The position numbers and the translations under genes are program-made. 64,000 nt of DNA from Clostridia bacterium (GTDB lineage Bacteria > Bacillota > DAOUPZ01): assembly GCA_030625885.1 (NCBI GenBank), contig DAOUPZ010000019.1, positions 1 to 64,000 on the forward strand. Reading direction: 5' to 3'. Positions 7,380 to 50,650 of the stretch are shown here, piece after piece. The notes below the pieces were generated by a model, which was not told where the DNA came from, did no database searches, and saw only the letters and a list, made by a program, of their open reading frames with translations. Every line of letters starts with the position of its first letter. Positions within the stretch are counted from its first letter, which is position 1.

Positions 7380-9261
7380 TGACCATCATTATGATATTAT
7401 TGTTGTAGGCGCAGGTCATGCTGGGTGTGAAGCAGCATTAGCTGCTGCAAGAATGGGATGCCAAACTTTATTCTTAACAATTGATTTAGATAATGTTGCT
7501 TTAATGCCTTGCAATCCTTCTTTAGGGGGGCCTGCTAAAGGGAATATTGTTCGCGAAATTGATGCTTTGGGCGGACAAATGGGTATTAGTATTGATAATA
7601 CGTTTATTCAAATGAGATTACTAAATACTCGTAAAGGACCAGCAGTTCAAGCTTTGAGAGCACAGGCAGATAAAAAATATTACCAAATATATATGAAACA
7701 AGTTTTAGAAAATCAGGATAATTTAGTACTGAAAGAAGCGATGGTTGATGAAATTTTAATTGAAGATAATTCTGTCACTGGGATTGTGACCCAAACGGGT
7801 GTAAGATACTTTTGTGATGCATTGATTGTAACGACGGGAACTTATTTAAAGGGACGAATTATTGTTGGGGAAACAAATTATGAAGGTGGGCCTAATGGAC
7901 AATTTCCTTCTATCAATCTATCCAGTAGTTTAGCCAAGATTGGTTTAGAATTAGGTCGATTTAAGACGGGGACCCCTGCTCGTGTTGATGGTCGAACACT
8001 TGATTATTCTAAAATGGAAATTCAACCGGGTCATGAACGGACGCCTTATTTTTCTTTCACAGATTCACATAGAGAAATTAAGCAGCAGCCTTGTTGGTTA
8101 ACTTATACGAACGAGCTTACACATGAAGTTATCAGAAATAATCTTCATCGTTCACCGTTATATGCTGGTATCATTGAAGGAGTCGGTCCGCGTTATTGTC
8201 CTTCTATTGAAGATAAGGTTGTACGTTTTTCTGATCGAACAAGCCATCAAGTTTTTGTAGAGCCGGAGGGGACACACACACATGAAATGTATATTCAAGG
8301 GATGTCTAGTAGTTTACCAGAAGATGTACAAATAGAGATGTATAAAACGCTCCCTGGTTTTGAAAATATGAAAATGGTTCGTCCTGCATATGCAATTGAG
8401 TATGATTATGTGATTCCTACTCAGTTGAAGCTCACTTTGGAAACTAAAATAATTTCAGGTCTTTTTACAGCTGGACAAATCAATGGTAGTTCAGGTTATG
8501 AGGAAGCTGCGGGACAAGGCCTTATGGCGGGTATTAATGCGGCATGTCTTATTCAAAATAAGCCTTCTCTTATTTTAGATCGGTCTGATGCTTACATTGG
8601 TGTACTAATAGACGATTTAGTTACTAAAGGAACACCTGAACCTTATCGTATGATGACTTCTCGTGCTGAATATCGTTTGATTTTACGTCAGGATAATGCA
8701 GATTTACGTTTAACTGAAATGGGTCGTAAAATAGGTCTGATTTCTGAGGAACGTTTTCAAAAATTTATGGTGAAGAAGAATTTAATAGATGATGAATTTA
8801 ATCGTTTATCTCAGTTTAGAATAACACCTAATGCTGATGTTAATCGAAAACTAGTTGATTTAGGAACAAGTGAGATACGTAATCTTTCTTCATTAGCTGA
8901 ATTACTAAAGCGTCCTGAGTTGTCATATCAGGATGTCCTTTCAATGATTGGTGAAGATTCAACTTTGCCAGATGATGTCATTGAACAAGTACAAATTCAG
9001 ATTAAATATCAAGGGTATATTGTTAAACAACTCAATCAGGTTGAACGCTTTAAAAAATTAGAGAATCATCTTATTCATGATAACCTTAATTATGACGAAA
9101 TTGTTGGACTTTCAACAGAGGGTCGTCAGAAACTTTCGCGTATTCGACCTCATTCTATTGGTCAGGCTTCTCGTATTTCGGGCGTGTCTTCTTCTGATGT
9201 TTCTGTTTTAATGATATGGCTTGAGAAAAAAAGAAAAATGCGTAAAGGCAGGGAAGCTTGA
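7372..9261 (+). CDS. mnmG: tRNA uridine 5-carboxymethylaminomethyl modification enzyme MnmG
   Basis: MnmG is the FAD/NADH partner of MnmE in wobble-uridine modification. This copy has every expected feature: [10 protein letters not shown], the PCNPS cysteine, [11 protein letters not shown], the RYCPSIEDK cysteine, MTSRAEYRL, and the C-terminal helical domain ending in [19 protein letters not shown]. The length is 629 aa from the ATG at 7372, which follows GGAGGGGGG. An earlier in-frame ATG (7324) lies inside the upstream gene and would add 16 non-family residues. Its stop overlaps the rsmG start. Confidence 0.98.
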
Positions 9262-11670: not shown

Positions 11671-12312
11671 ATGAAAAAATTACTTTATGTTACCTGTAAT
11701 TCAAAGCCTGAGAATTTATCTGCTAGTAAGTCTGTTGGCAGAGTGTTTATAGATGCATTAATTGAAGGTCACAGTGATTTTGAACTTAAGGAATTAGATC
11801 TTTACGAGATGTATCTTCCAAAACTTCAATATAAGTATTTTCAAGACAGAAATTCAGTAGTTGATTCACAGACGTATAGCAGCCTATCTCAGGAAGAGAA
11901 AAAAGATGTAGATAGAATAATTGAACTTGCTAATGAATTTAGAGAGACTGACTTTTATGTAATAGCAGTCCCTATGTGGAGTCTTATGTTTCCCGCACCA
12001 CTAAAAGAATACTTAGATTGTATAATACAAAATGATATAACAGTAAAGATTGATTCAGAAGATATAGGCGGGCTCTTAAGTGATAAAGAGAGAACGATGG
12101 TATATATTCAATCTTCTGGAGGAGGCATTCCATGGCTTCTAGAAAGAAAAATTAATCATGGTGGAACTTATATTAAGGATATATTTAAATTTATTGGCGT
12201 CAAAAACTTTTATGAAATTCTTGTTGATAAGACGGGGTTTACTATAGAAGAACAACTTGTAGCTATTGAACAAGGAAAGAAGGATGCCAGAGCTTTGGTA
12301 TCAAAGATTTAG
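11671..12312 (+). CDS. Flavodoxin-fold NAD(P)H-dependent FMN reductase / azoreductase
   Basis: This 213-residue protein of the flavodoxin-2 (AzoR/AcpD) family transfers hydride from NAD(P)H through FMN to quinones or azo compounds. The FMN phosphate-binding N-terminus (YVTCNSKPENLSASKSVG), the central AVPMWSLMFPAPLKEYLD segment and a glycine loop near QSSGGGIPW fit the family. The start ATG follows GAGGTG. It stands alone in AT-rich DNA between noc and comB, with hairpins on both sides and no operon partners, so it may be a later insertion into the origin region. The physiological substrate cannot be read from the sequence. Confidence 0.85.
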   Translation: MKKLLYVTCNSKPENLSASKSVGRVFIDALIEGHSDFELKELDLYEMYLPKLQYKYFQDRNSVVDSQTYSSLSQEEKKDVDRIIELANEFRETDFYVIAVPMWSLMFPAPLKEYLDCIIQNDITVKIDSEDIGGLLSDKERTMVYIQSSGGGIPWLLERKINHGGTYIKDIFKFIGVKNFYEILVDKTGFTIEEQLVAIEQGKKDARALVSKI

Positions 12313-16763: not shown

Positions 16764-16788
16764 TTGCATATCGTTAATAATATTAGAG

Positions 16789-16820
16789 GAGTATTCCTAA
16801 AAAGGAATACTCTATCTTTT
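16789..16820 (+). terminator. Hairpin between S1 gene and ppx
   Basis: GAGTATTCCT pairs perfectly with AGGAATACTC over a 4-nt loop, followed by TATCTTTT. The ppx ribosome site follows at once, so it may only attenuate. Confidence 0.65.
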
Positions 16821-16835
16821 TGAAAAGGTGAGGAA

Positions 16836-17747
16836 ATGAAACAAGAAGCAGTGATAGATATCGGTACAAATTCAATAAGATTATTAGTTGGAGAAAAATC
16901 TAACCAGGGTGAAGTCATTCCTATTTATACGGATAATAAAATAACGCGTTTAGGGGACGGGGTAGATAAAAGTGGTTACCTTAATTCCCAAGCTATTATG
17001 CGAACATTAGAAGGATTAGTGGAATATAGGACAAAGATTACTAACATGAATATTGATATCTTTAGTATAATAGCAACAAGTGCTGTGCGTGATGCAAAAA
17101 ACAAAGAAAGTTTTGCTGAAAAAATTGCTGATATAATGGGAAGACCACTAGAAATATTGAGCGGAGAGGAAGAAGCACAGCTCAGTTATCTAGGTGTAAT
17201 TAAGGGATTGAAAAAAAATACAGAAAATATCTTGGTAATTGATATTGGAGGAGGCAGTACAGAAATAACCTGGGGGATATCTGAAAAAATAATTAACGCA
17301 CAAAGCTTACAAATGGGTGCGGTACGCTTAACAGAAAGATTCATAGAGAGGGATTGTATTAGCCAAAGAAATTACCAGGATATGATTAAATATATAAAGC
17401 AACAGTTAAAAGAACAGATAGACGTAAACCATTTAATATCTGAGATGCAGGTGATTGGAGTAGGTGGTACAGCAACAACCTGTGCAGCAATAGATCAAAA
17501 TATGGAAGTGTATAATAGGGAAAAGATACATGGTTATGTATTACAGGGAGAAAATATTGATAGGATTCAGAGTATCCTCCTATCAAAATCTCTAAAAGAA
17601 CGTCAAAAAGTTAAAGGACTACAACCTCAGCGAGCAGATATAATCGTCTCTGGTATTGCAGTTTTATTACAAACGTTGAAATATTTTAACTGTAAGGAAA
17701 TCATAATTAGTGAAACTGACTTGTTATATGGAAGATTGGCAAAGTAA
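16836..17747 (+). CDS. Exopolyphosphatase/guanosine pentaphosphatase family (Ppx/GppA)
   Basis: This 303-residue protein of the actin/hsp70-fold phosphatase family cleaves polyphosphate ends or pppGpp. It has the N-terminal phosphate loop IDIGTNSIRLLV, a second loop VIDIGGGSTEITW near residues 130-145, and the VGVGGTATTCAA segment. It is the short, two-domain form, lacking the C-terminal HD-like domain of Escherichia coli Ppx. Substrate preference cannot be told from sequence. It lies just before the tRNA cluster and is probably co-transcribed with the S1 gene. Confidence 0.92.
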   Translation: MKQEAVIDIGTNSIRLLVGEKSNQGEVIPIYTDNKITRLGDGVDKSGYLNSQAIMRTLEGLVEYRTKITNMNIDIFSIIATSAVRDAKNKESFAEKIADIMGRPLEILSGEEEAQLSYLGVIKGLKKNTENILVIDIGGGSTEITWGISEKIINAQSLQMGAVRLTERFIERDCISQRNYQDMIKYIKQQLKEQIDVNHLISEMQVIGVGGTATTCAAIDQNMEVYNREKIHGYVLQGENIDRIQSILLSKSLKERQKVKGLQPQRADIIVSGIAVLLQTLKYFNCKEIIISETDLLYGRLAK

Positions 17748-23586: not shown

Positions 23587-23806
23587 AGGAATCAGTATTA
23601 AATGCTAACAAAAATTAAAAAATCAACAACATTATCAAATATATTGAAGTTAATTATGTTATATGAAGAAAAATACAGATATTTTGAATTTTTTGTGAAA
23701 AATATGTTGAAGTGTCTAATAAAATCAGATAAGATAGACTTGAGTATGAAACTTATTATTAAAGGTTTCAATCTTGTTTGGCAAGCAATTAAAATTTTAT
23801 ATGTTT

Positions 23807-23965
23807 TCTCCGAATTAATTTGCCTAAAGGAGTTTTCCTATGGCAATTAATCGATGGGTATTCGTGGAAACATGAATGCCTCCCGCATTTGGAAAGGAGA
23901 TCGTTTTTGAAAGCTGGTATGTTCCTTTGAAGTGGGCGTACTGGCTTTTTTTATTTGCCAGCAAG
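23807..23965 (+). ncRNA. Moco/Tuco-type riboswitch upstream of AOR
   Basis: The conserved blocks of the Moco RNA motif occur in order: CTCCGA (23809-23814), CCTAAAGGA (23823-23831), CTATGGC (23838-23844), GGGTAT, GGAAAC, and the hallmark GCCTCCC...TTGGAAAGGAGA (23878-23901). A shared 3' block TATTTGCCAGCA ends near 23963. These blocks align one-to-one with the element at 27144-27262. It lies about 110 nt before the AOR start, so it probably controls AOR in response to molybdenum or tungsten cofactor. No clear terminator follows, so control may act on translation or by a less obvious structure. Confidence 0.85.
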
Positions 23966-27120: not shown

Positions 27121-27143
27121 AAAAAACGAAAAGAAAATATTTT

Positions 27144-27262
27144 GTCTCCGAGCTTGACCACCTAAAGGAAACTATGGTGTAAAGCCGTTAGGGTATGAAG
27201 GGAAACTTTTATGCCTCCCATGTTGGAAAGGAGAAAGGCTGTGGGCTAGTTATGTTATTTGC
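27144..27262 (+). ncRNA. Orphan Moco/Tuco-type riboswitch
   Basis: The motif blocks match those at 23807-23965: CTCCGAG (27146-27152), CCTAAAGGA (27161-27169), CTATGG, GGGTAT, GGAAAC and GCCTCCC...TTGGAAAGGAGA (27213-27236), then TTATTTGCCAGCA. It has its own promoter and runs straight into a strong terminator. No gene follows on the plus strand until spoIIE at 28860; instead the transcript would run antisense to the storage-protein gene at 27356-28189. It could therefore be a small RNA, an antisense regulator or a remnant. Confidence 0.85.
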
Positions 27263-31550: not shown

Positions 31551-31632
31551 GATAAACATCCAAAGGATGTTTATCTAAGTTGTGCTTGACGCTAAGGCAA
31601 CTATGAATTACAATATATCTAAATTGAATGAT

Positions 31633-31726
31633 TAACTGGGGAGCTGGATGCATCTGGCTGAGAGGGAGTTGTGTAATTTCGACCCATTTAACTTGAACTG
31701 GATAATGCCAGCGAAAGGAGTGGAGA
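31633..31726 (+). ncRNA. TPP riboswitch (THI element)
   Basis: The conserved THI blocks are present: GGGGAGCTGGATG...CTGGCTGAGAGGG (31638-31665), GACCC (31681-31685), and GAACTGGATAATGCCAGCGAAAGGAG (31695-31720, listed as adjoining blocks). It controls the thiamine operon that starts at 31854 and is followed by a strong terminator. Confidence 0.96.
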
Positions 31727-31757
31727 AGACAGTTTTTCTGATGTCATATGTTAATTG

Positions 31758-48710: not shown

Positions 48711-48739
48711 TTGAAATAAAAGGTGAAATTAAGTATAAT
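48711..48739 (+). promoter_or_regulatory. Promoter of the fluoride riboswitch
   Basis: TTGAAA (48711-48716), a 17-nt spacer and a perfect TATAAT (48734-48739) lie just before the riboswitch. Confidence 0.8.
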
Positions 48740-48764
48740 CGAAGTACAAAAAACATAAAAGCAC

Positions 48765-48830
48765 TTAAGGGGATGAGGCTCCCCGGAGCATATTTGCTCA
48801 AACCCAGAATTGGTAATAGCTTCTACTGGT
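48765..48830 (+). ncRNA. Fluoride riboswitch (crcB motif)
   Basis: The core matches the recalled fluoride aptamer. A GGGG-ATGAGGCT-CCCC helix comes first, with the conserved GATGAGG loop, then AAAC (48799-48803), a short CCAG/TGG stem and TAATAGCTTCTACTGG. The GAGGC of the first loop can pair with GCTTC, forming the known pseudoknot. An extra small hairpin (GAGCATATTTGCTC) is inserted before AAAC. It overlaps a terminator and is followed by a dynamin-like gene. Confidence 0.88.
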
Positions 48831-48857
48831 TATAAGAGAGTAGAAGCTATTTTTTTA
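48816..48857 (+). terminator. Fluoride-controlled terminator
   Basis: ATAGCTTCTAC (48816-48826) pairs perfectly with GTAGAAGCTAT (48840-48850), followed by Ts. Its left arm is part of the aptamer pseudoknot, so fluoride binding should prevent termination: an ON switch. Confidence 0.9.
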
Positions 48858-48883
48858 TATAAAGCACTCATAGGAGGGGAAAA

Positions 48884-50650
48884 ATGAAACTTGATTATTT
48901 TATAGCAAAAGATGGGATGATTCACCTATGCCATCTTCTTGAGGAAGAGGCAAAGTCCATTCGAAAAGATTTATATCATAAAATGGAGCGCCTGGTTCAT
49001 AAAGCAGAGGAAAATCAATTTAATTTAGTTGTGCTCGGCCAATTTAAACGAGGGAAGACAACGTTTATCAATGCGATGTTAGGTCAAGATATTTTGCCTA
49101 CATCCGTAACGCCTTTAACATCTGTCATTACTAAGATTGCCTATGGTCAAAAAATACAATTGGAAGTGGTATTTTTAAATCAGGAACGAAAAATGATTCC
49201 TCTAGATCAATTATCTCAGTATGTGACAGAACGGGAGAACCCTAAAAACGAAAAAGGGGTCCAGGAAGTTTTCATTTATTATCCTGCTGAGTTTTTAAAA
49301 GGTGGTATTTTTATGATTGATACGCCGGGTGTTGGATCAGTCTATCAACATAATACCGATGTAGCCCATGAAATTATTCCTGAGGTTGATGCGGCTTTAT
49401 TTCTTCTAGGTGTTGATCCGCCCATCAGTGAAGTTGAATATCATTTTTTGCATGATGTCAAATCCTATGCCCCTAAAATATTTTTCTTACAAAATAAAAT
49501 TGATTTAATGCAGGAAAAGGAGCAGGTGGAATCATTAGAATTCTCGGCTAAAGTGATCAGGGAAGCCTTGGAATCGGATGAGGTTTTTATCTATCCTATT
49601 TCTGCGCGCAAAGCATTAGAGGGAAGGATACAAGAAAATGATGCTTTGGTTGAGGCAAGTAAACTGCCTGTTTTTGAAAACGATTTAATGTCCTTTTTGA
49701 TAGAAAATAAGGGCCGTGTTATGCTGCAAAAAGTGCTTAAACAATCGTTAAATGTTGCCAGTGAATTGCTTCTTGATCTTCAATTAAGAGAAAAAGCAAC
49801 ACAGTTACCCGTGCAAGTTTTGCAGGAAAAAAACACGGCTTTTGAGCGGTCTATGGTGAGCATTGATCAGGATAAAAAGGATAATATCTACCTTTTGCAA
49901 GGGGAAACTGCGTCGTTGATAGATGTTGTCCAGGAAGATTTAAACCAACTGAAAAACCAATTGATTGAAACATTGAAAGAAGAACGCAAACGGTTCTTAA
50001 AAACAAAAAAGGAGTTAAGAGGTAAAGGACTGGAAGATGCATTATGGGCTATGATTCAGGATAAAGTATACGCAGCTTTTGAAAGCTGGCAAAAGGGAGA
50101 AGAAGATAAAATTGAGGGGTTATTATTAAAAATAATGCATCGTTTTGAGAAAAAGACAAACGAGGTTGTGGAAACGATTGTCAGAATCTCGACTGAGTTA
50201 TTTGATTTAAAAATAGATTATTTTTCTGCGATTGAAACGGCAATGCCTTCCAAAGGGCTATATTACATCGCGCGACGAGAGAAGTCTTTCTGGCTTATCA
50301 GCTTTAAAAGTTTTTACCGCTGGATCCCGGATCATTTTCATCGTCAATTTTTAATGCGGGAATCACAGCGTAAGATTGAGGATTGGGTGGACAATAACTG
50401 CGGTCGGGTAAGATATGATTTTGTAATGCGCTTAAAAGAAACTTTGGGAGCATTTTCAGGCCAGTTAGAAGAAAAAATACAGGAGACACAGAATCATATT
50501 CATCAAGTCATTCAGGAGATTGCTTTAAAGAAGCAGAAAGACCAGCAAGAAATATCCGTTATGGAAGACGAAATAAATGCTCATGTAAAGGCGATTGAGT
50601 GTATAAAAAAAGAGCTGGAATCATGGCAGCAACGATTTGACAGGGAGTAG
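48884..50650 (+). CDS. Dynamin-like GTPase
   Basis: This 588-residue dynamin-family protein has an N-terminal GTPase domain: G1 GQFKRGKTT near residues 51-59, G2 threonines in PTSVTPLTSV, G3 DTPGVGS near 146, and G4 NKIDL near 204. A long helical region of about 350 residues is predicted to form the stalk (coiled coils from about 310). A hydrophobic, aromatic stretch near 450-490 (KSFWLISFKSFYRWIPDHF) could be the membrane paddle. Bacterial dynamins remodel or protect membranes. Its only visible control is a fluoride riboswitch with a terminator. No partner dynamin gene is adjacent. Confidence 0.92.
   Translation: MKLDYFIAKDGMIHLCHLLEEEAKSIRKDLYHKMERLVHKAEENQFNLVVLGQFKRGKTTFINAMLGQDILPTSVTPLTSVITKIAYGQKIQLEVVFLNQERKMIPLDQLSQYVTERENPKNEKGVQEVFIYYPAEFLKGGIFMIDTPGVGSVYQHNTDVAHEIIPEVDAALFLLGVDPPISEVEYHFLHDVKSYAPKIFFLQNKIDLMQEKEQVESLEFSAKVIREALESDEVFIYPISARKALEGRIQENDALVEASKLPVFENDLMSFLIENKGRVMLQKVLKQSLNVASELLLDLQLREKATQLPVQVLQEKNTAFERSMVSIDQDKKDNIYLLQGETASLIDVVQEDLNQLKNQLIETLKEERKRFLKTKKELRGKGLEDALWAMIQDKVYAAFESWQKGEEDKIEGLLLKIMHRFEKKTNEVVETIVRISTELFDLKIDYFSAIETAMPSKGLYYIARREKSFWLISFKSFYRWIPDHFHRQFLMRESQRKIEDWVDNNCGRVRYDFVMRLKETLGAFSGQLEEKIQETQNHIHQVIQEIALKKQKDQQEISVMEDEINAHVKAIECIKKELESWQQRFDRE

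Follow-up and report, generated by a model that had tools for sequence, protein, structure and literature searches.

A predicted fluoride riboswitch upstream of a dynamin-like GTPase gene, and the recurrent linkage of fluoride aptamers with one clade of bacterial dynamins

The stretch of DNA analysed here (64,000 nucleotides of a Clostridia bacterium genome, hereafter the window) contains a gene for a dynamin-like protein (DLP) directly behind a leader with the features of a fluoride riboswitch. Overall, we consider it probable that the leader and the gene form a fluoride-induced unit, in which a DLP of a distinct clade has been recruited to the fluoride regulon and likely serves membrane remodelling. 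The sequence-only reading of the window had proposed that fluoride controls the dynamin, and this proposal is now strongly supported by comparative genomics, that is, by a covariance match to the leader and by aptamer-DLP pairs that recur in dozens of other, distantly related genomes. The role of the DLP in membrane maintenance is suggested by its homology to the dynamins BDLP and IniA.

To our knowledge, no other dynamin is under a riboswitch. We found no mention of the aptamer-dynamin pairing in the open literature (an entry in the tables of the founding paper, Baker et al. 2012, is conceivable), no open paper we found contains "fluoride riboswitch" and "dynamin" together, and dynamin is absent from the fluoride-switch genes in PMC11139923, PMC2864571 and PMC7266159. 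The known defences against fluoride are export, pH balance and the replacement of inhibited enzymes (PMC11139923), and the pairing suggests that the response of bacteria to fluoride also has a membrane arm, apparently not described before. If this is true, a fluoride-induced dynamin adds membrane maintenance to these defences, a group of bacterial dynamins gains a defined inducer, and sodium fluoride becomes a simple on/off handle for asking what the cellular job of a bacterial dynamin is.

The leader and its genomic setting

The observation was confirmed: all the leader elements described in the sequence-only reading were located on the forward strand, at the positions given. The promoter, a sigma-70-type TTGAAA-17-TATAAT at 48711-48739, matches 11 of the 12 consensus bases; a single match of this quality arises at about the rate seen in shuffled sequence, and its weight comes from its position. 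Running a covariance model over the leader, as had been suggested, gave a match to the fluoride riboswitch family RF01734 at 48760-48832 (31.8 bits, E = 3.8e-7, cmscan against all of Rfam). The same aptamer was recovered by a covariance model built without the window (21.8 bits, E = 0.004), and it is the sole RF01734 match detected across the 3.1-Mb genome (E = 6.8e-7). A chance match was therefore rejected on this genome-wide uniqueness, together with the E-value of 3.8e-7 and the covariation described below.

The score of 31.8 bits falls short of the curated cut-off, the Rfam gathering score of 34, which the aptamers of directly comparable relatives reach. The shortfall is probably caused by an inserted hairpin at 48785-48799 (GGAGCATATTTGCTC), an optional element placed by RNA folding between P1 and AAAC; a hairpin occurs at the same position in the relative L093 and in variant aptamers of L091 and L095. 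Despite the sub-cut-off score, the leader was filed as an RF01734 fluoride riboswitch because the core, the pseudoknot, the terminator and the conserved context are all present.

The 5' strand of the pseudoknot, GAGGC, lies in the P1 loop at 48775-48779 and pairs with GCTTC at 48819-48823, the partner that had been claimed. Most relatives have GGAG/CTCC at the pseudoknot; the GAGGC/GCUUC of the window contains a compensatory A-U pair that also occurs elsewhere, and this replacement of G-C by A-U at the second pseudoknot pair is one of nine double changes there. When aligned with 36 relatives, the window aptamer retains the invariant columns, and its P1 and pseudoknot strands pair; its short P3, which was misplaced in the covariation alignment, was read by eye. 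In the relatives' alignment P1, P3 and the pseudoknot jointly covary, with 155 double-change cells versus 43 in shuffles, and 96.5% of their cells are paired versus at most 50.4% in slid versions.

The pseudoknot strand GCTTC is also part of an intrinsic terminator at 48815-48856, as had been claimed, with a 13-bp stem (48815-48827/48839-48851), an 11-nt loop and a run of seven T (RNA fold -16.8 kcal/mol). A simple terminator scan missed it because of the length of its loop. Since GCTTC lies within the terminator stem, the aptamer and the terminator are mutually exclusive, and fluoride binding should therefore prevent termination. A ribosome-binding site, AGGAGGGG, was read in the sequence at 48872-48879. 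The aptamer core, the pseudoknot and the logic of the terminator overlap are the same as in the RF01734 fluoride (crcB) riboswitches, from which the window leader differs in its extra hairpin and in its target gene, a dynamin.

The DLP gene is solitary, with the end of a PTS EIIC-like gene 80 nt 5' of the aptamer and a convergent rubrerythrin-like gene downstream. We rejected the idea that the window aptamer serves another gene, the next plus-strand gene being the DLP gene 52 nt away; divergent genes are served in L093 (a Na+/H+ exchanger-like ORF, judged by eye) and in L124 (crcB). The earlier statement that crcB and eriC-F are missing is true of the window; elsewhere, a different contig carries the genome's single crcB, which lacks an aptamer, and the genome has one CLC, whose GSGIP and GREGP motifs mark it as the ordinary chloride type. 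By this search, the dynamin gene is the only one found under a predicted fluoride switch in the window genome, and the DLP's aptamer is likewise the sole fluoride aptamer found in G399, G401 and G402. The window also contains two molybdenum-cofactor riboswitches and one TPP riboswitch, at 23796-23915, 27134-27249 and 31627-31736.

The dynamin-like protein and its clade

The single dynamin-family gene that had been reported behind the leader is present at 48884-50650 on the plus strand and encodes a GTPase of 588 aa (Pfam Dynamin_N, PF00350, E = 5.6e-29) with intact G1, G3 and G4 motifs; trees and profile and fold matches in the PDB agree with this identity. The best profile match was Nostoc BDLP (2J68, E = 3e-48); Mycobacterium IniA (6J72, E = 7.6e-30) and Campylobacter DLPs are also among its nearest solved relatives by sequence profile. 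The AlphaFold model is of moderate quality (pLDDT 72.6, pTM 0.60) and predicts long helices that form a BDLP-type helical neck and trunk; its best fold match is again 2J68 (TM 0.62, rmsd 9.3), with the placement of the arms uncertain. Residues 446-493, a possible membrane-facing tip, have pLDDT below 50. The nearest aptamer-linked relative shares just 37% identity.

BDLP and IniA, the best profile and fold matches, have the full GTPase motifs, as does the window DLP. By contrast with them, the fluoride-linked DLPs form a separate clade, in which most members carry DTPG[VI]GS, and the window DLP is shorter (588 aa versus 695 in the BDLP chain) and is predicted to be induced through a fluoride switch. 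The paired dynamins CjDLP1/2 and LeoABC belong to the same superfamily and are fold matches, with only weak PADLOC similarity between LeoA/LeoBC and the window DLP. Bacterial DLP genes are mostly paired in operons (PMC6104087); unlike these pairs, the window DLP and most of its clade are single genes without the LeoABC-type tandem arrangement, and the surveyed tandem pairs lack an aptamer. A phage-defence DLP of the LeoABC kind was rejected, as the similarity is weak and the tandem DLPs fall outside the fluoride clade.

All fluoride-linked DLPs included in the tree fell into one clade of 46 proteins (support 99/93). This second tree leaves out six long-branch tandem DLPs; in the first tree, which includes them, the linked DLPs also group (35/40, support 86/84). 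A fluoride aptamer precedes, or shares the upstream region with, 39 of the 46 clade members. Three of the seven exceptions (L071, L097 and L138) are truncated at contig ends; a divergent aptamer is present within 90 nt of L093, and L101 lies 7 kb inside a fluoride island; for L099 and L098, no linked aptamer was found in the neighbourhood scan. The branches of L098 and of the Lichenicola protein described below are long, and their exact positions in the tree are unsure. The neighbourhood scan found no fluoride aptamer at the tandem-pair DLPs of the same phylum, and other bacterial DLPs, mostly tandem pairs, are not linked to aptamers. We also observed that the frame of the fluoride-linked dynamin is interrupted by stop codons in L083 (G115), L088 (G179) and L135 (G406).

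Recurrence of the linkage in relatives

The window genome is the only representative of its class in our survey, which made comparison at family to class level uninformative, and relatives were therefore sought across the phylum. The survey took in 399 genomes of this phylum, along with a second phylum and one alphaproteobacterial plasmid. DLPs were found in 51 of the 399 genomes and aptamers in 155, the latter an undercount because the strict phylum-wide search missed even the window's own aptamer. The neighbourhoods were then scanned with a covariance model built excluding the window, to look for aptamers before homologous DLPs, as had been proposed. Among DLPs of at least 200 aa, 21 have a same-strand aptamer no more than 350 nt ahead of their start and nothing intervening, a count that includes the window and four loci from the other phylum; 17 further DLPs lie in an apparent operon under an aptamer. 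These pairs occur in two phyla.

Protein similarity was the sole criterion for fetching four loci from another collection, and each of them has an aptamer directly upstream. Their NCBI titles read Aquificota, Thermodesulfobacteriota or just bacterium, but the genome index assigns all four to a single phylum, and they are counted accordingly. In this second phylum, a DLP occurs in 8 of nine genomes, and all 7 DLP genomes with upstream sequence have an aptamer, six of them directly upstream and one about 0.8 kb away. A third phylum contributes a divergent case: on a plasmid of Lichenicola cladoniae, an alphaproteobacterium from an Antarctic lichen, an aptamer-crcB-Usp unit diverges from a fluoride-clade dynamin (L124, NZ_CP053712.1, 2668-6551). 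It was the one linked record from the plasmid searches, and the fluoride dynamin set may travel on plasmids.

At the genome level, 36 of the 38 genomes that carry the clade have an aptamer, compared with 119 of the 361 without it (p = 3.3e-14, with genomes that are not independent samples). For genomes with only other DLPs, the figure is 4 of 13, at the background level. Many numbered families of the phylum show the association between clade and aptamer. A lineage-specific accident was rejected on the counts of aptamer-DLP pairs, their presence in the second phylum and the single clade.

The expression platforms differ by lineage. In most DLP leaders of the home phylum, the terminator includes the pseudoknot strand, as judged by a simple script. 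In L004-L007, the strand CCTCTACC faces GGAGGTAGAGG just 5' of an ATG, an arrangement that looks like ribosome-binding-site masking; the script's platform label for L007 was ignored, the T-run lying inside the gene. That the same gene is served by two platforms favours the DLP as a genuine target.

The genes that recur under or beside the same aptamers encode a Na+/H+ exchanger, a universal stress protein, a DUF6062 protein, paired MutS-like proteins, an MFS transporter, a HEAT-repeat protein, enolase, CrcB with DUF190, a P-type ATPase and MoxR/DUF58 proteins. Among them, antiporters, enolase, crcB and mutS are already known from fluoride switches (PMC11139923; PMC2864571). The clade is recurrently linked, across lineages, both to the aptamers and to known fluoride genes, as a member of a fluoride regulon would be.

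Proposed role, rival explanations and variant aptamers

Without fluoride, the leader RNA would fold the terminator, and transcription would stop before the DLP gene. When fluoride enters the cell, the aptamer would bind it together with Mg2+ and its pseudoknot would sequester GCUUC; the terminator could then not form, and read-through would allow the GTPase to be made. Its clade, made up of bacterial dynamins that are mostly encoded by single genes, appears to have been largely recruited into the fluoride regulon. Drugs induce IniA, which causes membrane fission in vitro (PMC6715688). The window DLP would most likely assemble at the cytoplasmic membrane, where it would use GTP for remodelling or patching, and this action may protect the cell by limiting HF/proton leak or membrane damage, beside the exporters and Na+/H+ antiporters. 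On balance, we lean towards a general reading of the clade as a conserved non-transport arm of fluoride resistance that acts on membranes and is induced by riboswitches, through a terminator or through apparent Shine-Dalgarno masking depending on the lineage; in some genomes, that of the window included, no gene other than the DLP was found under such a switch.

The strongest competing explanation is that fluoride targets the GTPase itself, and that the switch overproduces an inhibited enzyme, as proposed for enolase. GDP with AlFx or MgFx blocks P-loop NTPases. Increased enolase production has been described as a response to inhibition by fluoride (PMC11139923). In our survey, the enolase gene of L086 is under a fluoride aptamer close to a clade DLP, and that of L095 comes after the DLP. 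However, linkage to aptamers is confined to one DLP clade; the phylum's other DLPs have a GTPase site of the same kind and are unlinked, and no other fluoride-sensitive enzyme was found under a fluoride switch in the window genome. We consider this explanation unlikely.

Slightly less credible still is a general envelope-stress dynamin, for which fluoride would be one of several inducing stresses and which would have no fluoride-specific role. Related bacterial dynamins respond to other membrane stresses or protect against them, IniA in the case of anti-tuberculosis drugs (PMC6715688) and DynA in that of antibiotics or phage (PMC8844932). Yet linkage specifically to the fluoride aptamer is what recurs in the clade across lineages, and in four genomes, that of the window among them, the only fluoride aptamer found is the one at the DLP. 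That the window aptamer alone is decayed or non-functional, the relatives' aptamers being real, would fit its sub-threshold score and extra hairpin, but is very improbable given its conserved core columns, the intact pseudoknot with a compensatory pair, the coupled terminator and the pairing conserved in relatives.

Some further features of the surveyed loci were recorded. At 18 loci (L123:2541-3302 and relatives), the gene that comes first behind a fluoride aptamer encodes a DUF6062 protein; no link between DUF6062 and fluoride was found in the open literature. In fluoride operons, the HEAT-repeat gene recurrently has just upstream of it a gene for a small protein (about 115 aa) that looks coiled-coil-like by eye (L082:10623-10964, L086:13777-14133). 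Lastly, in three genomes that belong to a single genus, six fluoride-like aptamers carry CAAG at the near-invariant GATG position of the core (L091:15102-15176 and 7752-7825; L095:8245-8318, 11741-11822 and 16769-16844; L096:8360-8433). They keep the pseudoknot strand and terminator-like sequence, some lie 5' of MFS or DUF190 genes, and they may represent a variant with altered ligand binding.
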